Shown: positions 5,726 through 36,808 of the stretch, in pieces
Position numbering within the stretch: position 1 is the first letter of the stretch
Layout: every line of letters starts with the position of its first letter
Source: a virus
IMG/VR virus record: IMGVR_UViG_3300003321_000606
Span: 1-45,453 of that record
DNA: 45,453 nt
Direction: 5' to 3' (one strand)
Translations under genes and position numbers: made by a program
The notes under the pieces: generated by a model
Told to the model about the DNA's origin: nothing
What the model saw: only the letters and a program-made list of their open reading frames with translations
The model's database searches: none

Positions 5726-6250
5726 TTAAAGGCTGATTTCAAGCTTGTTCGCAAGCTTCTGCTTGTCTTTCGCGTTCTTGGCGCGACGGGCAAGTTCTTC
5801 GTCAATCGCCGGATCGAAGGTCGCAGCGTTCGCGGCGTAAACTTCGTCAAGCTTCGCGTTCTGATCGCGAGGCTCCATTCCGGTGAACTTGGCCCATTCA
5901 GGCGACTTGCTTCCAAACTTCTCCTTAATCGCCTTACGCACAATGGAACGTGCAACGCTGGTGCGCGGATCAACACCTTCACCAGTTCCGCGATGCGACC
6001 ATTCACCCTTGATGAGTGAAGCAAGACAATCATTCATCATGCCCTGCGCGACGGTCTGAACTTCCGTCTTGGTTTCATCGGCAACTTTGGTCGCGGCGCT
6101 TGCGCTGTCACGCAGCTTCTGGCCAATCCCATACTCACAAAGATTGGCAAGAACGCTTGCGATTTCCGTGGTGCGAACAGTCACACTCGCACCATTCCGC
6201 ATACCAACGATGTATTCGTCTTCCAGTTCAATTGTGAACTTCGTCATCAT
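5726..6250 (-). CDS. Hypothetical early protein, 174 aa, single-gene transcription unit
   Basis: Two tandem ATGs (6250, 6247) follow AAGGAGTCGA. The protein begins MMTKFTIELEDEYIVGM, continues with a helical middle (RDSASAATKVADETKTEV) and DPRTSVARSIVRKAIKEKFG, and ends LANKLEISL. The C-terminal third is alternately charged. It has its own candidate promoter/operator (6296-6325) and a strong terminator, so it may be abundant or separately controlled. Its overall plan resembles the 42594-43091 product. It may be a DNA-associated early protein, but that is a guess. Confidence 0.75.
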   Translation of the reverse strand: MMTKFTIELEDEYIVGMRNGASVTVRTTEIASVLANLCEYGIGQKLRDSASAATKVADETKTEVQTVAQGMMNDCLASLIKGEWSHRGTGEGVDPRTSVARSIVRKAIKEKFGSKSPEWAKFTGMEPRDQNAKLDEVYAANAATFDPAIDEELARRAKNAKDKQKLANKLEISL

Positions 6251-6295
6251 TCGACTCCTTCAAAGAACGGCCCGGTTACTTCCGAGTCGCAACGC

Positions 6296-6325
6296 TACCT
6301 TGAACCGACAAACGAAGTTTGTCAA
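6296..6325 (-). promoter_or_regulatory. Candidate leftward promoter with overlapping dyad operator
   Basis: A consensus -35 TTGACA lies at 6325-6320 on the minus strand, with a weak -10 (AAGGTA, 6301-6296) 18 bases away. The 17-bp dyad GACAAAC-GAA-GTTTGTC (6307-6323) overlaps the -35, a common place for a repressor site. It would drive the 6250-5726 gene. Confidence 0.4.
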
Positions 6326-6431
6326 GCGGCTCACGCAAAAAATCTTCCGTAGCTAAATGCAACCAAGTTTTAACCCTAGCGCGCAAGCGCCTTTTTGGCT
6401 GATACCGGGGCGCCTCGCGGTTTCCCTGGCC

Positions 6432-6491
6432 CTTCGCAAAATATATACAGTTTTTAACATATGGCTCATAACTGCCTTCTTCGCAAAATAT
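6432..6491 (+). repeat. Direct repeat pair CTTCGCAAAATAT in the divergent control region
   Basis: The 13-mer occurs at 6432-6444 and 6479-6491, start-to-start 47 bases. Each copy is followed by ATGGCTCA (6461-6468 and 6493-6500). The pair sits in the gap before the late genes and may be a duplicated promoter or binding-site module. Confidence 0.5.
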
Positions 6492-6530
6492 GATGGCTCA
6501 CAAACTCGGTGAGAATTTCACCCAGTAAAT

Positions 6531-6542
6531 GGTATGGCTCTA
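6531..6542 (+). promoter_or_regulatory. TATGGCT element (half-site) before the late operon
   Basis: GGTATGGCTCTA, with related ATGGCTCA cores at 6461 and 6493. The three ATGGCT cores are spaced 32 and 41 bases, close to whole helical turns. It lies 57 bases upstream of the terminase small subunit start. Confidence 0.5.
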
Positions 6543-6543
6543 A

Positions 6544-6575
6544 TCCGCGATTGCGGAACCGGGGTTGGCCCCGGT
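6544..6575 (+). promoter_or_regulatory. Tandem stem-loops in the late-operon leader
   Basis: TCCGC-GATT-GCGGA (6544-6557) is followed with no spacer by ACCGGGG-TTGG-CCCCGGT (6558-6575). There is no T-run, so termination is unlikely. Two adjacent small hairpins at the head of the late transcript could stabilise RNA or act like antitermination (put-type) RNA. Confidence 0.5.
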
Positions 6576-6598
6576 GCGTTTCTGGTGTATAAGGGGAT

Positions 6599-7171
6599 AT
6601 GGAATTGAACGCTGAGCTTTTTAGAACTAGAGGGCGGGCCGCGAAACCAATCGTTGCCGCTGTGGTTCGTGAACTGGATCGAGCAGATATGGTGCTGTTG
6701 TCTAGCGAGCGTGGTGTAAAACCCTCGGCAATCAAGCGTCTGTCGGAGCGTCATCACGCATTGGCTCGAAACCTCGCCAGTGGAATGCCTGAGGGTGACG
6801 CAGCCACTTTCTGTGGTTACACTATCTCGCGCGTCAGCATTCTCAAATCCGATCCCGCGTTTAGAGAACTGCTGGAGTTTTATCGCGAAGATGCACAGCG
6901 ACCTTATCGCGACCTCCACGTTCGGTTGAGCGGGCTCGCGATGGATGCAGCTGAGGAGCTTTCCAACCGGCTTGAGGAAGAGCCTGATAAAATTTCCAAT
7001 GGACAGCTTATGGAGCTGACTAAGCTTGGCGCCGACCGCACCGGGCATGGTCCCAGTTCAACTCAGCTTAATTTAAATGTTGATTTGGCTAGTCGTCTTG
7101 AAGCTGCACGAAAGAGAGTAGCTCAGCGTAAGTTCACTTTAATCGAAGGAGGTTCAAGTGAAACTGAATAG
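6599..7171 (+). CDS. terS: Terminase small subunit (probable)
   Basis: The 190-residue protein is first in the late operon, with start ATG 6599 after AAGGGGAT. Residues about 60-95 (HHALARNLASGMPEGDAATFCG, then ISRVSILKSDPAFRELLEF) have the helix-turn-helix plan of small terminase subunits: an 'A..LA.G.....A...G.S...V..L..DP.F..LL' pattern. Such proteins bind the packaging site and direct the large subunit. A helical oligomerisation region follows (RLEEEPDKISNGQLMELTKL). The large subunit lies 1.8 kb downstream, with exported fibre-like genes between the two, an unusual separation. Confidence 0.75.
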   Translation: MELNAELFRTRGRAAKPIVAAVVRELDRADMVLLSSERGVKPSAIKRLSERHHALARNLASGMPEGDAATFCGYTISRVSILKSDPAFRELLEFYREDAQRPYRDLHVRLSGLAMDAAEELSNRLEEEPDKISNGQLMELTKLGADRTGHGPSSTQLNLNVDLASRLEAARKRVAQRKFTLIEGGSSETE

Positions 7172-30545: not shown

Positions 30546-30829
30546 TGAAGTCTAATCAATCTCGAAATTGGTCAAGATCCAATGCCACTCGTGAGGGGAT
30601 GAGTCGACCGGAGGATCGTTTCCCTCCGGTCGACTCCGGTGCGCGCCAGCAGATCGCTCGAAAGGCAGACAGCTCAATTTCTATTAATGTGGGACTTGGA
30701 CTGAATGGCGGTGGAGATTTAACAAGTGATAGAACTATTGATCTTGATCTTGGTTCAGTTCTTATCGCCGGTGCTGGAATTACTATCACTGATAATGGCG
30801 ACGGAACATTCACAATCTCATCACCTTAA
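30545..30829 (+). CDS. Fibre-tip-like small protein, 94 aa
   Basis: The C-terminal half (INVGLGLNGGGDLTSDRTIDL, then AGITITDNGDGTFTIS) carries the repeat common to phage tail-fibre tips. The N-terminal half is basic and hydrophilic, and its DNA contains a perfect 14-bp inverted repeat (30601-30636). It could be a detached fibre or adhesin domain. The gene ends the rightward block, sharing TTAA with the stop of the convergent gene. Confidence 0.7.
   Translation: MKSNQSRNWSRSNATREGMSRPEDRFPPVDSGARQQIARKADSSISINVGLGLNGGGDLTSDRTIDLDLGSVLIAGAGITITDNGDGTFTISSP
30601..30636. repeat. Perfect 14-bp inverted repeat inside a coding region
   Basis: GAGTCGACCGGAGG and its reverse complement flank an eight-base spacer. 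It is GC-rich and stands out from the AT-richer surroundings. It lies near the end of the late operon, about 190 bases before the convergent stops. No T-run follows on either strand. Confidence 0.8.
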
Positions 30830-32040
30830 GCGGCTTTATAAGCCATAGGTTCGTAACCAGTTCCACCTGACTCAGTGAACTTCTTCTGTAATAGCTGTGA
30901 CCGTTCCATAACATCTAAAATTCTGGCGATGTTATGGACCGGCACACGCTCTTGCAAGAAATGAACTATGCGATGCTCGGGCACCGGCTTTTTATCCTTC
31001 ATGTAAATTTGATATGTGAAGTGCCAGCATTCCTCGATCGCCCGGCCGTCGCCACCAGCTTTCATTGATTTGAAAACATCAGGCATAAACTTCTCAAGCT
31101 GAGCAAGCCAATCAAGCGCCTCAGCGAAATGGTCGATCGTTATAATCTTCTCGTCATCCGAAGCTATGCTCGCGATGGTGCAAAGCTTAAGTAAGTGGGC
31201 TGCGCGACGGGCGCAATAGGATACCAGCTTAGGATGGTCTGGGATCGGTGGACCACCAGCTTTGCTCCACTCATTGATCGCAAGCTTAGCTTCTTCTGTA
31301 ACTGTCATTTCCCCGAAGAGCTTATACATCTCTTTTAAATCGTGGATCAGGCTATTACGAAGTTGACTGTCCATATCGAAAATATTGAACAGGTCGGTAT
31401 AGACTAACTCATTGGAGAATACGATTAACATTCGGGACATAAATCCCTGTTCCCACGCGCCCTCAGGTAAGAGGTTTGTTAAATACATCGGCGTGGTCGC
31501 GCTGAACAAATTCAGCTGCGTGCGCGGAATATTAATGTTGATTTTATGTGTGCGACGAGTTTCAGCATAGCGACCGCAATCCCACAGATCGGTTAGCGAT
31601 GACATGAAATCTCCCTCCCATGACGGGAGGAAAACACCGAACTCATTCGGGACAATAGTTAGCGAGTTGAAACTGACAACGGCGGGACTGTCCATTGGAC
31701 GGACGATCCGGCGTTCGGCATCAGCAAGATTGTCAATCAATGAAGCTTTAGTTACACTCGTAGGCGCAATAAAGAATGGAGTCTCTGGCGTGCGAACTTC
31801 ATTCAGCAAATCATAAACCGTTCCGGTGCATAGAGATTTCCCAATACCGGCCCCGCCTACCAGCAAAATATACTGGTTAGGATAAAGCCTGCCTTTAGCT
31901 GTGGTTAGCCAAACCTTCCGTTCGCATATCGCTCCAACAGTAAAGATCGCGGCCCACAATCTGTAAAGCCTCGGTGATCCTTTACCTTCAGTATATGCAA
32001 GAAAGCTGTCAATCCAGTTTTTAAGCTGCCTTGGCACCAA
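30826..32040 (-). CDS. P-loop ATPase, primase/helicase-like (DUF3987-type)
   Basis: The protein is about 404 residues. The start is TTG 32040 or GTG 32037, overlapping the polymerase end. Walker A GGAGIGKS lies at residues 62-69. Later segments (NEFGVFLPSWEGDFMSSLTD, LFSATTPMYLTNLLPEG) fit replicative helicase-type ATPases often found beside phage DNA polymerases. It probably drives fork unwinding. No primase catalytic motifs are visible. It is the last gene of the leftward block. Confidence 0.7.
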   Translation of the reverse strand: MVPRQLKNWIDSFLAYTEGKGSPRLYRLWAAIFTVGAICERKVWLTTAKGRLYPNQYILLVGGAGIGKSLCTGTVYDLLNEVRTPETPFFIAPTSVTKASLIDNLADAERRIVRPMDSPAVVSFNSLTIVPNEFGVFLPSWEGDFMSSLTDLWDCGRYAETRRTHKININIPRTQLNLFSATTPMYLTNLLPEGAWEQGFMSRMLIVFSNELVYTDLFNIFDMDSQLRNSLIHDLKEMYKLFGEMTVTEEAKLAINEWSKAGGPPIPDHPKLVSYCARRAAHLLKLCTIASIASDDEKIITIDHFAEALDWLAQLEKFMPDVFKSMKAGGDGRAIEECWHFTYQIYMKDKKPVPEHRIVHFLQERVPVHNIARILDVMERSQLLQKKFTESGGTGYEPMAYKAA

Positions 32041-33565
32041 GAACCCCCGCCAAACTCAGCTTGAACTGACGTTCTTCTCGTTGGCGGGAGTCACTACCAT
32101 TCCATTTCTTAAGTCCATCAGGATTATCCTCGCTATAGTTTCCCCAGTTCCATCCGGTTTTTGCTTCGGTTGGAACTGAGAACTTACGTCCCTTGTCGAG
32201 TTCTAAATGAGTTGTAAGTGTTTCAAGAGCCCAAGGAATTATTTCATCTTCAAGTTCTTCTGGATATTGAAAGAGAATGGAGTCATGGACTTGCATTAGC
32301 AATTGCACACGATTACCTCGCCATAGATTTAAAATACCAAGATTGATTTCATCAGCTGTCATAGATTGCGGTGCGAATGCGACGGCCTCGCGTTGGGTAT
32401 CTTTGTCTTTGGGTCTGCCAAAGAAAAATCGGCGTCGGCCGAGGGGAGTTGTGATTTGGTTGAAATGCTCTAGTTGGTAGATCGTCGACTGCTGCCAAGC
32501 TACAATGCAAGGAAATGCGTTGAAGTAATTTTCCTGAAACTCGCGAATAGATTGAATTGGAAACTTTGTGTGCTTGTGTGCGGTTTGAGGTGTAACTAGA
32601 TAGTTGGTTGCATGACCGAGTTTCTTGCACATAAACCTGTAATCGAAATGGCGGTAGCATAACTGCTCAGCAATTTCACGGTCCGGCGCGGTGCCCCAAG
32701 GCAAATGATGGAGCGTCATTTTGGCTACTGCAGTGTGGAGATCTCCGCTTTCACAGGCGTCAAGATAAGCACCTGCTGTTCGCTCATTCCAATCAGAATT
32801 ATTGCAAAGGAGGTTCCAGCATAAGGCTCCAACATTACGGCTGTCTCCTTGTTCGAGATCGAGATTTCCGAACTTGTATCCTGGATCGGCGACGAACACA
32901 GACCTAAGAGACTCTGTGACATTCTGAAGATTAGTTCCAGTTCCGAAGTCGGTAACGCTTGAAGCAAATCTTCCGGTGACAGTCCCTGCAATCTTAAGAT
33001 CACTTCTCATTCTCCCATCTGGATCAACTTCGGTTTCCAGAAAGCCAATAGATTTACCCAAGTCGCGCAGAAGTAAAAGGTGGTTGATGATAGGCTCGGC
33101 TATGAAGTAAATGCCCTGAAGTTTTTCAAGCGCATCACGATCAACTGACGGGCCGAACGTTCCATCAGTCTTACGTTTTTTAACTGGTGGTAAACCCATT
33201 ACGCGGTAAAGCAGGTTCATAACCTGAGCCGGCGATCGCCAGTTAATCGCTGGAACACCTACACCATCAATAACCAGTTTATTGAATTGTTCCTCAAGCT
33301 GAGCAAGTTTAACTCGCATCTCGGAAATAACCTGGCGCTTGCGATTTTGGTTTACGAGAATACCACGCAAACACATTTCAGCCACCGGAGCTTGAAGTGC
33401 TTTGCTAAACTCGTAAGTCGAAAGCCCGACGTTATCAACCATTGAAATAACATTGCTGAAAATTTCAGTGGTTAAGCAACAGTCAAGTCCATTGTAAATC
33501 CAATGGTTTTCATCTCTGTTGAAAGATGAAAAATCAGCTGTCTGTGTGTTGATTATCTTTGCCAC
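32021..33565 (-). CDS. Family A DNA polymerase, polymerase part with exonuclease motif III only
   Basis: The 514-residue protein starts at GTG 33565 after GAGGATTTCA. Motif A is DLEQGDSR (D236), motif B RFMCKKLGHATNY (residues 310-322), and motif C VHDS (H428, D429), where most relatives have HDE. The N-terminus holds WIYNGLDC: Y24-x3-D28 is exonuclease motif III. Motifs I and II are absent here but present in the UDG-exonuclease protein at 34294-35313. The polymerase thus seems split inside its proofreading domain. It overlaps the upstream gene by 32 bases. Confidence 0.88.
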   Translation of the reverse strand: MAKIINTQTADFSSFNRDENHWIYNGLDCCLTTEIFSNVISMVDNVGLSTYEFSKALQAPVAEMCLRGILVNQNRKRQVISEMRVKLAQLEEQFNKLVIDGVGVPAINWRSPAQVMNLLYRVMGLPPVKKRKTDGTFGPSVDRDALEKLQGIYFIAEPIINHLLLLRDLGKSIGFLETEVDPDGRMRSDLKIAGTVTGRFASSVTDFGTGTNLQNVTESLRSVFVADPGYKFGNLDLEQGDSRNVGALCWNLLCNNSDWNERTAGAYLDACESGDLHTAVAKMTLHHLPWGTAPDREIAEQLCYRHFDYRFMCKKLGHATNYLVTPQTAHKHTKFPIQSIREFQENYFNAFPCIVAWQQSTIYQLEHFNQITTPLGRRRFFFGRPKDKDTQREAVAFAPQSMTADEINLGILNLWRGNRVQLLMQVHDSILFQYPEELEDEIIPWALETLTTHLELDKGRKFSVPTEAKTGWNWGNYSEDNPDGLKKWNGSDSRQREERQFKLSLAGVLGAKAA

Positions 33566-33899
33566 TGAAATCCTCTATTGTTATATATTCGATTGGGATA
33601 TTTCTACTAGTGGCAAATTTTATTTCAGCCTGAACACCTTTGCTTTCTTTCCATCCAGGAAGTTGCAAGACATATAGTTTACTGCTTTTGCGCAAAAATA
33701 CAAGGCAATACCTCAGCCAATAATCGGCATCGTTTGGCAGCCGGTGTCCCTTTGCCATGAAGTGACAGTGAGTTATTGGCGAGAAGATAATCTCCCCGCG
33801 ACGGATAAGCTCAGCACAAACGAACGTGGCTTGGTCATGGCGGTGTTCGCGGACGCGGGGATCGGGGTGAGAATAGGGAGCAGCAAGATATTTAATCAT
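33534..33899 (-). CDS. DUF1937 nucleoside 2-deoxyribosyltransferase-like protein, 121 aa
   Basis: The family pattern is clear: YLAAPYSHPDPRVREHR at the start, then GEIIFSPITHCHFMAKGHRL, LPGWKESKGVQAEIKFA. DUF1937 relatives share the nucleoside 2-deoxyribosyltransferase fold and may handle nucleotides or nucleotide-like signals. The gene lies between the two parts of the split polymerase and overlaps both neighbours, so it is co-translated with the replication genes. Confidence 0.82.
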   Translation of the reverse strand: MIKYLAAPYSHPDPRVREHRHDQATFVCAELIRRGEIIFSPITHCHFMAKGHRLPNDADYWLRYCLVFLRKSSKLYVLQLPGWKESKGVQAEIKFATSRNIPIEYITIEDFSGKDNQHTDS

Positions 33900-34143
33900 G
33901 GCGGAGCTTCCATAACGCTCGGAAGTTAAGAATAATTATACAGCTTTCCATAATCCAAAGTGAAGGAAGCTTAGCTGCATAACCGAACTGCGTGAACAGT
34001 CCAACGATCAGGAACATTATGGCTCCGAAAGTGCTGAACCAATATGCAGCTGCGGTGCGGCCAGTGCCGATCATCCAGTAGAATAGCATAAGTCCTGCGA
34101 AGCCGAGCCAGCCAAGATAATTGAGAATTGGTAGCTCAGTCAT
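33892..34143 (-). CDS. Membrane protein, three predicted TM segments, 83 aa
   Basis: It begins MTELPILNYLGWLGFAG, with three hydrophobic stretches (WLGFAGLMLFYWMI; YWFSTFGAIMFLIVGLF; LPSLWIMESCIIILNF). This resembles the small 'LNYLGWIGA' membrane family (CBU_0592-like, from memory). It is one of three small genes in the gap of the split polymerase. No function is known. Confidence 0.75.
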   Translation of the reverse strand: MTELPILNYLGWLGFAGLMLFYWMIGTGRTAAAYWFSTFGAIMFLIVGLFTQFGYAAKLPSLWIMESCIIILNFRALWKLRHD

Positions 34144-34301
34144 ACCTCCGAGTCCTTAAAGAAAGTTATCTTATCAGATATTTGAGCTACGATACCCCTA
34201 CCGTCCTTCTCATAGAAAATAATCTGATTACCCTTATGAATAGCTTTTTCGGCCTCGATAAATCTAGTTCCTTCTGGTAGCTCTATTCTAAACTTAGTCA
34301 T
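34140..34301 (-). CDS. Small hypothetical protein, 53 aa
   Basis: The ATG at 34301 overlaps the end of the UDG-exonuclease gene by eight bases, and the TGA overlaps the next ATG. It begins MTKFRIELPEGTRFIEA and forms what looks like a small beta domain (GNQIIFYEKDGRGIVAQI). It is the first of the three genes between the two polymerase parts. No function recognised. Confidence 0.65.
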   Translation of the reverse strand: MTKFRIELPEGTRFIEAEKAIHKGNQIIFYEKDGRGIVAQISDKITFFKDSEV

Positions 34302-35313
34302 GCTTCATTCCCTTTCTCATGAATTTCCAACTGGCCTCGTCAGTATAGATTGAAGCTAGAAAGCCCAATCCTTTTTCCATTTCTGGCTGCCAGGCGTGAT
34401 GTAAGAGCATGGTATCTTCCTGCGCGAGTGGCACTGGGATTTTATAACTTCGCCAGAGGAATTGAATATCATACATTCCATTCTGGAAGATCGTAGGCTT
34501 TTCAGCTAACCAACGTCTGACGAAAGACCAAGCGATAAGCTCTTCATCAATTGTCGGCCAGTAGTTTTTGTTGGGTCGGAGTTCGCTGATGAATGGAATA
34601 ACAATGCACGAGCTAGGGTGTGGTGCGAACCCGATGCAAGTAATCTGGTTCTGCCAAGTCTCGATATCGGCTGCGAGGGAGGTCGCGGGTCGGATAAACT
34701 CTTGCTCATAAGTATCTAAATCCTCAAGAGTTGGGTAGGTCCATATCTCGCGGAACGGGCGAGTGAAAATCGGAGACTCGCTTTCGCGTTTGGCTTTGTC
34801 CAGATCTGCAACGCCAACGGGCCGGTTCGCCCATTCTCGAGCGATAGCGGCGGGGTGATAGGTTGGAAGCACCTTGTAAGCGCGACCGCATTTGGCCGCC
34901 ACGGAATGGCTTGTAAGCGCCACCGCGCCCCGTATGGCCTTGATACCGGTGGAGTGAAGCAACGCCCATGCGGCGGTCGCCCCAAGCGCCACAATCACGT
35001 TAGGATCAACGTCGCGGATTTCAGCATACAAACGTTCGAGCTCGCCAGCATATTTCGCGAGAACATACTTACCCTTCTGTAAGGTAGGCAAACCTGGAAT
35101 GCCCTCGGTCTTTGTTCCGCACAGATTTTTAATATCATTGGAGGGTTTAGGACGGAGATTGAATACATTGGTTATGTAACAATCCTCTCGCGTGAGGCCA
35201 ACCTGTGACAGCATACCATCAAGTATCCAGCCTGATGTACCGACAAATGGAGCACAAGCCTCTTCTTCTTTCTCGCCCCATGCCTCGCCAACAAGCATTA
35301 TTTTTTTACGCAT
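34294..35313 (-). CDS. Uracil-DNA glycosylase fused to 3'-5' exonuclease motifs I-II
   Basis: The protein is 339 residues; the start at ATG 35313 (MRKKIMLVGEAW) overlaps the upstream end by 16 bases. Residues 9-30 (GEAWGEKEEEACAPFVG) and HP at about 153 (PTYHPAAIA) mark a family 4-like UDG. From about 210, LAADIETW (D216, E218) is exonuclease motif I and NGMYD (N278, D282) motif II. The protein stops after the LGFLASIYTDEASWK region, before motif III. The missing part is at the start of the polymerase protein. UDG-polymerase fusions are known in phages; a break at this point is unusual. Confidence 0.82.
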   Translation of the reverse strand: MRKKIMLVGEAWGEKEEEACAPFVGTSGWILDGMLSQVGLTREDCYITNVFNLRPKPSNDIKNLCGTKTEGIPGLPTLQKGKYVLAKYAGELERLYAEIRDVDPNVIVALGATAAWALLHSTGIKAIRGAVALTSHSVAAKCGRAYKVLPTYHPAAIAREWANRPVGVADLDKAKRESESPIFTRPFREIWTYPTLEDLDTYEQEFIRPATSLAADIETWQNQITCIGFAPHPSSCIVIPFISELRPNKNYWPTIDEELIAWSFVRRWLAEKPTIFQNGMYDIQFLWRSYKIPVPLAQEDTMLLHHAWQPEMEKGLGFLASIYTDEASWKFMRKGMKHD

Positions 35314-35537
35314 GAAACTAGTCCATTGACTATCAAATCGTTTTGAGCTGCGGTTACAGTAGCTACAAGTCGCGGCCACATATATTCAGCATTCTCTTTC
35401 CAAACAACTCCGTGCCAAGTTGTTCGTTCATCATCAGCCCAGCAAATAACAAGACCCTCGATTTTTCCAGCTAAAGCTCTCTCGCGAATATCGTCGATAG
35501 CCTCAAGAATTTGTCCACTTCCATAGAGGATTTTCAC
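35298..35537 (-). CDS. Hypothetical protein, 79 aa
   Basis: The GTG at 35537 overlaps the methyltransferase stop (GTGA). It begins MKILYGSGQILEAIDDIRE and contains KIEGLVICWADDERTTWHGVVW. It looks like a small alpha/beta domain of the kind seen beside phage replication genes. No function recognised. Confidence 0.65.
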   Translation of the reverse strand: MKILYGSGQILEAIDDIRERALAGKIEGLVICWADDERTTWHGVVWKENAEYMWPRLVATVTAAQNDLIVNGLVSCVKK

Positions 35538-36808
35538 TTCCAGTTCCTTATAGCGTCTTCGTAAAACTCTTTAGATAACTCAAGTCCACGAACAGTATTT
35601 GCGTTTAACTCTAATGCTACTTTGAGTGCGTTACCGCTGCCACAAGTAGGATCAAGAACAAGAGAATACTCGTCACACACCATAGACATAAAATGGCGAA
35701 GAACAGGTAAAGGTTTTTCACTGATGTGAATGGCATCAGCGCGTGTTCCAGGATAAGCAAAAGAATTACTCTTTGCGCCCACTTGGGTGAGCTTGCGATC
35801 GCCCTTAGCACAGAAAAATGCTGTTTCATAAGTTCTCCTTGGACTTCGCTGCGGGTCAGGCGCAACCCCGGCGTTATCGCTCTTATGCCAGATCAATGGA
35901 AATGGGTTAACCTGCCAACCAATTCCATCCAAAAAACTTCTCGTAGTTTCGTAGTAATCCATCGAGAACCAAAAGATCATATGAGCGCTGTCAGCTACGA
36001 CGTTATCCATCGCGAGCCCAAGTCGATTAAGTAGGCTGTAATAAGTATCAGCACTATCCTCATAATGATCCCTAATGGCTGAGTTCTGTCGAGGGGCATC
36101 AGCAACATTGATGCCGTAAGGAAAATCGCAATGCAGGCAATTAAAACGAGGTCCATCATAACTCTCCTGCCACTTGTGAAAATCCGCGTTTAGGATTGGA
36201 ACAACTGGGACAGGCGGTGCGGTTGGTTGCTCAATGCCAAGAGCAGAGGACAGCACGCTTTCCGCTCCAATCAAAGCACTGGCTTTCTTACGTTCAGAAT
36301 TGCGCTCAACAATATTTCGAGCTACAGAGAATTTATCGGCGGTAGCCACACGCTCGTTACCGGATAGAATTTCTTGTGCAACTGCGATATTGCGCGAGAT
36401 CATATTCTGATCAAGGCCGATCGCTGTCGCCGTTTTCTCTTGTGACCAATCTGGCTCGTGCTCGGATTTGAGTTTATGGAACCGAGCGATCGCCAAGCAC
36501 TGATCCTGCCACGGCAAGTCCACTCGCTTGATATTCTCCTCAAGCTCAATTGATTGTAGCTCGTAATCCGAAAGTTCGTTAGTGAACTGAACAGGGATAG
36601 AAGTCCAGCCGAGAGTGCGACAAGCCGATAACCGCCGCTCACCCGCAACGAGAACACCCTCTGGCGTAATCACGATTGGATTAATGAGCCCGATCCGATG
36701 GATGGACTCTGCAAGATCGTCGATGTTATTTAGCTCTCGTCGCTGACGTTCGGTGCGCTCAACAACAATAGAGGAAATTGGAAAAGGTTTGAACTTACCG
36801 CTCGTCAT
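35534..36808 (-). CDS. ParB-like domain fused to N6-adenine DNA methyltransferase
   Basis: The protein is 424 residues. The N-terminal ParB/sulfiredoxin-like domain (residues about 8-150) has GVLVAGERRLSACRTLG at 51-67 and a helix-turn-helix-like part (TATAIGLDQNMISRNIAVAQ). The C-terminal methyltransferase has motif IV CDFPYG (227-232) before motif I DPTCGSG (386-392), the beta-class order also seen in CcrM. It probably methylates adenine in phage DNA to protect or time it. The target is unknown; GANTC is a candidate, given the repeats in this genome. Confidence 0.88.
   Translation of the reverse strand: MTSGKFKPFPISSIVVERTERQRRELNNIDDLAESIHRIGLINPIVITPEGVLVAGERRLSACRTLGWTSIPVQFTNELSDYELQSIELEENIKRVDLPWQDQCLAIARFHKLKSEHEPDWSQEKTATAIGLDQNMISRNIAVAQEILSGNERVATADKFSVARNIVERNSERKKASALIGAESVLSSALGIEQPTAPPVPVVPILNADFHKWQESYDGPRFNCLHCDFPYGINVADAPRQNSAIRDHYEDSADTYYSLLNRLGLAMDNVVADSAHMIFWFSMDYYETTRSFLDGIGWQVNPFPLIWHKSDNAGVAPDPQRSPRRTYETAFFCAKGDRKLTQVGAKSNSFAYPGTRADAIHISEKPLPVLRHFMSMVCDEYSLVLDPTCGSGNALKVALELNANTVRGLELSKEFYEDAIRNWK

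Follow-up and report, generated by a model that had tools for sequence, protein, structure and literature searches.

A phage DNA polymerase gene broken inside its proofreading exonuclease domain, in a whole clade and around an exchangeable set of small genes

Introduction

How can a DNA polymerase proofread when its exonuclease domain is divided between two genes? The question is raised by an IMG/VR virus record (IMGVR_UViG_3300003321_000606), of which positions 1 to 45,453, the whole stretch of 45,453 nucleotides analysed and called the window here, encode on the minus strand a protein with a uracil-DNA glycosylase (UDG) domain and part of a 3'-5' exonuclease domain, then three small genes, and then a separate family A DNA polymerase. 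An earlier note on this DNA had proposed that a polymerase is broken here inside its exonuclease domain, with motifs I and II on the first protein and motif III on the second. The coordinates, reading frames and motifs on which this proposal rested were all confirmed on the sequence, and the same break is found in 117 distinct loci, which excludes chance and sequencing error as its source. The split is an old, family-wide trait, and the three genes in the gap are local, exchangeable cargo.

Exonuclease motifs on two proteins

The UDG-exonuclease protein (339 residues; 34294..35313, minus strand, as for all features below) begins with a family-4-like UDG domain (residues ~1-165; PF03167, E=2.1e-21), followed by the first part of a DnaQ-like (DEDD) exonuclease domain with motif I (D216-I-E218; 34660..34668) and the motif II aspartate D282 (34468..34470). 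It stops nine residues past a conserved tryptophan-lysine pair, W329-K330 (WK), which together with its short tail (34294..34329) marks the conserved break position, and no motif III is present within it. Motif III (Y24-N-G-L-D28; 33482..33496) is carried by the polymerase protein (514 residues; 32021..33565), which consists of the last part of the exonuclease domain and a family A polymerase domain (PF00476, E=8.9e-29), and it aligns with YNCKD or YNGKD of fused relatives. The alignment to intact UDG-polymerase fusions that the earlier note had suggested shows that fused chains pass directly through the junction at which the window has two proteins: fused relatives read YCEFHEYWKDEGKDWDAKTGEDQLWFYNCKDA, whereas in the window YTDEASWKFMRKGMKHD closes the first protein and VAKIINTQTADFSSFNRDENHWIYNGLDC opens the second. 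Both proteins match PHROG 17 ('DNA polymerase', a long family), with positions 519-788 of the profile falling to the UDG-exonuclease and 809-1240 to the polymerase, and because these positions adjoin, the two are neighbouring parts of one ancestral protein. All elements of a DnaQ-like (DEDDy) exonuclease (D-x-E, D and Y-x3-D) are present and invariant, spread over two polypeptides, and they form one domain only if the proteins assemble. A second complete exonuclease of this type was not found in the window record, where PF01612 had no match even at E<=10, the UDG-exonuclease protein included, in a search that did not extend to other exonuclease types; in one relative (L157, on a chimeric-looking contig) PF01612 covers profile positions 37-123 of 173.

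AlphaFold2 models of the single proteins have a mean predicted local distance difference test score (pLDDT) of 92.8 for the polymerase and 92.1 for the UDG-exonuclease. The polymerase N-terminus is modelled confidently (pLDDT 81-91), and a long helix there (16-41 of a model that starts at residue 2) contains motif III. The UDG-exonuclease model drops from a pLDDT of ~90 to 77, 70, 71 and 53 over residues 301-339, and this low-confidence end lies where the missing partner helix would pack. In Foldseek searches the polymerase is closest to the Taq large fragment (E=1.1e-21), with the Bst and Klenow large fragments matching too. For the UDG-exonuclease the matches are to UDG4/UdgX structures, with weaker ones to ExnV1 and Klenow. 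The catalytic aspartates D236 and D428 and the O-helix residues R310 and K314 of family A polymerases are invariant in 106/106 split relatives.

Extent of the split clade

Relatives came from viral contigs, which were scanned with the window polymerase as well as with alignments of the two halves, from genome contigs, scanned once, and from phage records. Both parts lie on the coding strand in 155 loci, of which 152 have the break point of the window and three are fused; removal of duplicates leaves the 117 distinct split loci. Since each scan contributed its best 80 matches only, and one had 400 confirmed, the split clade is larger than this sample. A nucleotide search of phage records gave no match. 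Caulobacter phage Kuura (OQ067476), which has been isolated and completely sequenced and is the only cultured member among the matches listed, has the same split and is basal on the polymerase tree, and its relative L169 is split too. Two small genes separate the halves in Kuura, and they differ from those of the window. Its UDG-exonuclease gene is annotated as 'hypothetical protein' next to a separate polymerase gene, so in phage polymerases of this type the proofreading part that seems absent can be found next door; the Kuura paper names the DNA polymerase without mention of a glycosylase, an exonuclease or a split (PMC9959647).

That the break is an artefact of assembly or sequencing can be given practically no weight. 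Among the contigs fetched, two have a chimeric look, yet this explanation is refuted by the recurrence of the break across the distinct loci and in the isolated Kuura. In the first of the two (L101/L029, IMGVR_UViG_3300020045_019936) the halves lie on opposite strands; it was discarded as evidence of a real rearrangement, being a probably chimeric 5.8-kb contig with a 164-nucleotide, 98% identical terminal inverted repeat and a seemingly cut MazG gene. The L157 contig was discarded likewise.

The spacing of the halves bears on a further explanation, namely that they are rejoined before acting, through an intron, a split intein, frameshifting or stop read-through. From the stop of the UDG-exonuclease to the start of the polymerase the distance runs from -4 to 1924 nucleotides (median 490) in the distinct loci. 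It is zero or negative in 14, where abutting or overlapping genes make read-through or frameshifting conceivable, and the polymerase split of phage MEP401 has been tentatively ascribed to an intron (PMC10580990). Against rejoining, the gap is fully coding over as much as 1.9 kb, all three relative reading frames (0, 1 and 2) occur, each half has its own start and stop, and the 8-15 residues after WK and the 20-39 before motif III are too short for intein halves. Rfam gave no match in the window (E<=1) or in 12 relatives (gathering score), and no in-frame intron or intein route joining the genes was found. Rejoining is accordingly regarded as highly improbable.

A probable single break in a fused ancestor

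Fusions of UDG, exonuclease and polymerase are known in phages, as for PaBG gp205 (PMC7412058). Like gp205, the proteins of MW202489, Microcystis phage Mel-JY34, Desulfofustis phage LS06-2018-MD01 and vir526 have the same domain order as the split pair and are homologous to it through the junction, but they are single chains with 17-22 residues between WK and the motif III tyrosine and no gene break there. A scan for fused relatives found 67 of 85 comparison loci unbroken across this junction. On a polymerase tree of 60 split and 15 fused members (a quick search, with a few long branches) the split requires one change, the split polymerases forming one side of a single branch (Shimodaira-Hasegawa-like approximate likelihood ratio test, SH-aLRT, 96), and because other family A polymerases are joined at this point, the split is the derived state. 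The halves are hence separate products that derive from a single ancestral polymerase gene and keep its native order.

The surroundings of the pair agree between fused and split phages. In the window the pair is flanked upstream by a gene for a ParB_N and N6/N4 DNA methyltransferase protein (35534..36808; PF02195 and PF01555) and downstream by one for a primase/helicase-like DUF3987 protein (30826..32040; PF13148, E=2.5e-13), and the fused phages MW202489 and Mel-JY34 have the same two neighbours. The DUF3987 gene keeps its position in 102/102 split loci with a match, and the ParB-methyltransferase gene in 72/72. The junction between polymerase and DUF3987 stays tight (median -14 nucleotides, n=102), so wide spacing is a property of the break rather than of the operon at large. 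The methyltransferase and UDG genes are widely spaced as well (median 288 nucleotides, n=72). At the break itself the new ends have lengthened: with medians of 13 residues (after WK) and 23 residues (before motif III) they exceed the 17-residue link of the fused proteins, and conserved features have been gained at both, [KR]-I-I-x-T at the polymerase N-terminus (T in 102/106) and K-[RK]-[DE]-[DE] at the exonuclease C-terminus.

Constraint on both halves

Has the exonuclease decayed since it was split? Breaks through a catalytic domain often abolish activity, and some family A polymerases lack proofreading. However, D216, E218 and D282 are invariant in 115/115 split relatives, as are W329 and K330, and Y24 and D28 in 106/106, in a clade so divergent that the mean identity of the exonuclease part is 55%. 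The median ratio of nonsynonymous to synonymous substitution rates (dN/dS), taken from sixteen independent close pairs of which some are saturated at silent sites, is 0.079 for the exonuclease part and 0.077 for the polymerase, compared with 0.113 for the UDG domain, whose residues are also looser (H153 in 99/115, N49 in 93/115). An inactive or decaying exonuclease is therefore very unlikely. The earlier note had offered two outcomes, complementation in trans or lost proofreading; the alternative was correctly drawn, while its second branch now appears unlikely, given the invariant catalytic residues on both sides and the strong purifying selection.

A different possibility is that both proteins work and no longer meet, in which case the UDG-exonuclease would serve on its own as a nuclease or in repair, while the polymerase would replicate without proofreading and keep the motif III helix only as an element of its fold. 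To our knowledge, the positions of Y24 and D28 have no role in the family A polymerase domain. In Klenow the equivalent residues, Y497 and D501, are part of the exonuclease site. Because no role in the polymerase domain is known, their invariance argues that they complete an exonuclease site lying mostly on the other protein, which speaks against independent halves, as does an exonuclease dN/dS as low as that of the polymerase. The divergence of the exonuclease part, moreover, correlates better with that of the polymerase (r=0.85) than with that of the UDG domain on its own chain (r=0.73). Such a correlation is no proof of contact, and a separate proofreading-type exonuclease does exist among the relatives of Thermus phage G20c: ExnV1 (PDB 7r0t) is, like the UDG-exonuclease of the window, encoded apart from a polymerase, but the accessible part of its description mentions no partner polymerase (PMC9629493). 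ExnV1 spans residues 1-315 of the related PolI_G20c (PMC9629493), whereas the exonuclease here is without a motif III of its own. Taken together, independent halves are considered unlikely.

A probable proofreading site assembled from two gene products

The reading that we favour, and regard as probable, is that a one-chain gene was broken once, that the break was fixed in the clade, and that the halves dock as a heterodimer that rebuilds the exonuclease site; the association and the shared site are inferred. An ancestral UDG-exonuclease-polymerase gene would have been broken between motif II, with the conserved WK behind it, and motif III, perhaps by a homing endonuclease or a similar insertion, the present gap genes being later passengers, and the break would then have become fixed in a large phage clade. 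Both proteins would be made from one polycistronic message with translational coupling and would dock by way of the ends that the break produced. Carrying Y24 and D28, the helix at the polymerase N-terminus would supply what the exonuclease fold lacks, such that D216, E218, D282 and D28 form a two-metal site with Y24 as a helper. Proofreading would take place in the complex, where a complete exonuclease domain lies beside the polymerase, and the exonuclease subunit would bring the UDG domain with it to the fork.

Several points weigh against this picture. The average product-corrected (APC) mutual information between the halves places 3 exonuclease x polymerase-N-terminus pairs among the top 100, where 4.7 are expected (null 0-7, effective depth 83), and this lack of enrichment, which says little about direct coupling, leaves room for stand-alone halves. 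The conserved KRD-type tail of the exonuclease may in part be the ribosome-binding site of the next gene, and the UDG half could have a function of its own apart from the polymerase. The content of the gap, finally, does not testify to the splitting event: HNH genes (HNH_3) occupy no more than 9 of 117 gaps, and none was found in the gap of the window by Pfam and PHROG searches.

A variant of the heterodimer, in which proofreading is switchable, is doubtful. Here the free polymerase subunit would copy DNA without proofreading, and binding of the UDG-exonuclease would turn on both proofreading and the inspection for uracil. Fidelity would be tuned by the relative amounts of the two products, which would depend on the number of cargo genes between them on the message.

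The gap as an exchangeable slot

In the window the gap holds three small genes, each of which overlaps its neighbour, as the earlier note had described; the overlaps measure 4-32 nucleotides. The first (34140..34301, 53 residues) overlaps the UDG-exonuclease gene by 8 nucleotides, falls outside the larger clusters of gap genes and has no family by Pfam or PHROG search. The second (33892..34143, 83 residues) overlaps the first by 4 nucleotides (ATGA) and is without a match in Pfam; its hydrophobic product is, judged from its sequence, probably a membrane protein. The third (33534..33899, 121 residues) overlaps the second by 8 and the polymerase gene by 32 nucleotides and encodes the DUF1937 protein that had been named before, a nucleoside 2-deoxyribosyltransferase-like protein (PF09152, E=1.4e-15; PHROG 355, E=3.3e-21).

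Across the clade the gap is essentially all coding (median coding fraction 1.0) and holds 0-6 genes, in total 190 open reading frames in 86 clusters, 70 of them singletons. Recurrent families, counted over the 117 loci, are DUF1937 (32, including the window), DUF7768 (23), a helix-turn-helix-like protein (16), KTSC (14) and MazG (5), besides HNH_3. On the tree, eight changes are needed between empty and filled gaps and seven for DUF1937, so that the contents have been gained and lost often: the gap serves as a slot in which small genes are exchanged. A role of these genes as a functional unit co-translated with the polymerase was rejected as a general explanation, as their identity varies from one relative to the next and 14 relatives have none. 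In those 14 the two genes are nevertheless separate, so the design of the polymerase does not include the genes of the gap. Nucleoside 2-deoxyribosyltransferase-like genes (DUF1937 or DUF7768) are present in 55/117 gaps, from which a loose tie to nucleotide metabolism may exist. DUF1937 and DUF7768, each of which matches or relates to such transferase families, never occur in the same gap, as if one replaces the other.

Known split polymerases and what the locus offers

Split replicative polymerases have precedents. T4-like Aeromonas phages have a family B polymerase split into gp43A and gp43B, whose products co-purify and are active, and a split phage NrdA also reassembles (PMC2988022). As in the window, the polymerase consists of two neighbouring gene products with something in between, but it belongs to family B and the spacer is untranslated sequence or a seg endonuclease gene instead of variable small genes. 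The OM43 phages MEP401 and MEP402 (PMC10580990) and Vibrio phage vB_VspS_VS-ABTNL-3 (L012) have a family A polymerase in two open reading frames with a small one in between, recurring in a phage group, but there the break lies within the polymerase domain and the exonuclease domain is whole. The literature searched, which left out most subscription journals, yielded no report of an exonuclease domain broken between motifs II and III, nor of a phage clade in which a break of this kind is fixed.

If the pair does rebuild one exonuclease site, this would be a natural, family-wide proofreading active site built by two gene products, to which the polymerase contributes motif III. Such a pair would offer a ready system for the reassembly of a split catalytic domain and for proofreading switched on by subunit binding, and it would allow one to ask why a break in a catalytic domain stays fixed, since the genes were never found re-fused in the sampled loci, even where they abut. 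The locus also shows that small cargo genes can go on settling where a core gene has been broken.

Other breaks and features of the family

Fused relatives carry their own, different breaks, and breakage of this gene is thus recurrent; among the breaks seen, only the one between motifs II and III is common to a large clade. In L185 (1343-1684) and L218 an HNH_3 endonuclease gene (PF13392, E=2.8e-10 in L185) breaks the gene between the UDG and exonuclease domains, and it is likely a homing element still in place. Fused-type relatives are broken within the polymerase part in L223, L244, L246, L252 and the Vibrio phage L012, and the gap of L252 (5640-6560) holds an open reading frame resembling the C-terminal domain of Lon protease (PF05362, E=1.7e-5). 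In L171 (MW202554, 2950-3135) the gene is broken just past motif III; an overlapping frame there contains a C-x2-C...C-x2-C stretch, recognised by eye, which we take to be zinc-ribbon-like and to resemble NrdR. L238-L242 have an in-frame insertion of ~290 residues near the polymerase O-helix motif (about 5858-6721), which has the size and place of an intein and, in L240, which was tested, no Pfam intein match.

In the UDG domain the motif reads GEAWG (W in 88/115), where family 4 is expected to have GE[A/G]PG, and H153, the histidine of the HPS/HPA motif, varies; UDG activity is uncertain. The protein might alternatively start at GTG 35379 (361 residues) instead of ATG 35313, which would put a C-S-Y-C pair ahead of the UDG domain; family 4 UDGs have iron-sulfur cysteines, which this pair resembles. 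In the polymerase, residue 318, aligned by eye with Klenow Phe762, is a histidine in 106/106 split relatives; the literature searched on position 762 of viral PolA discusses Phe, Tyr and Leu, and the word histidine is absent from it. Motif C of the polymerase (residue 429) reads HD[S/A] in place of HDE.

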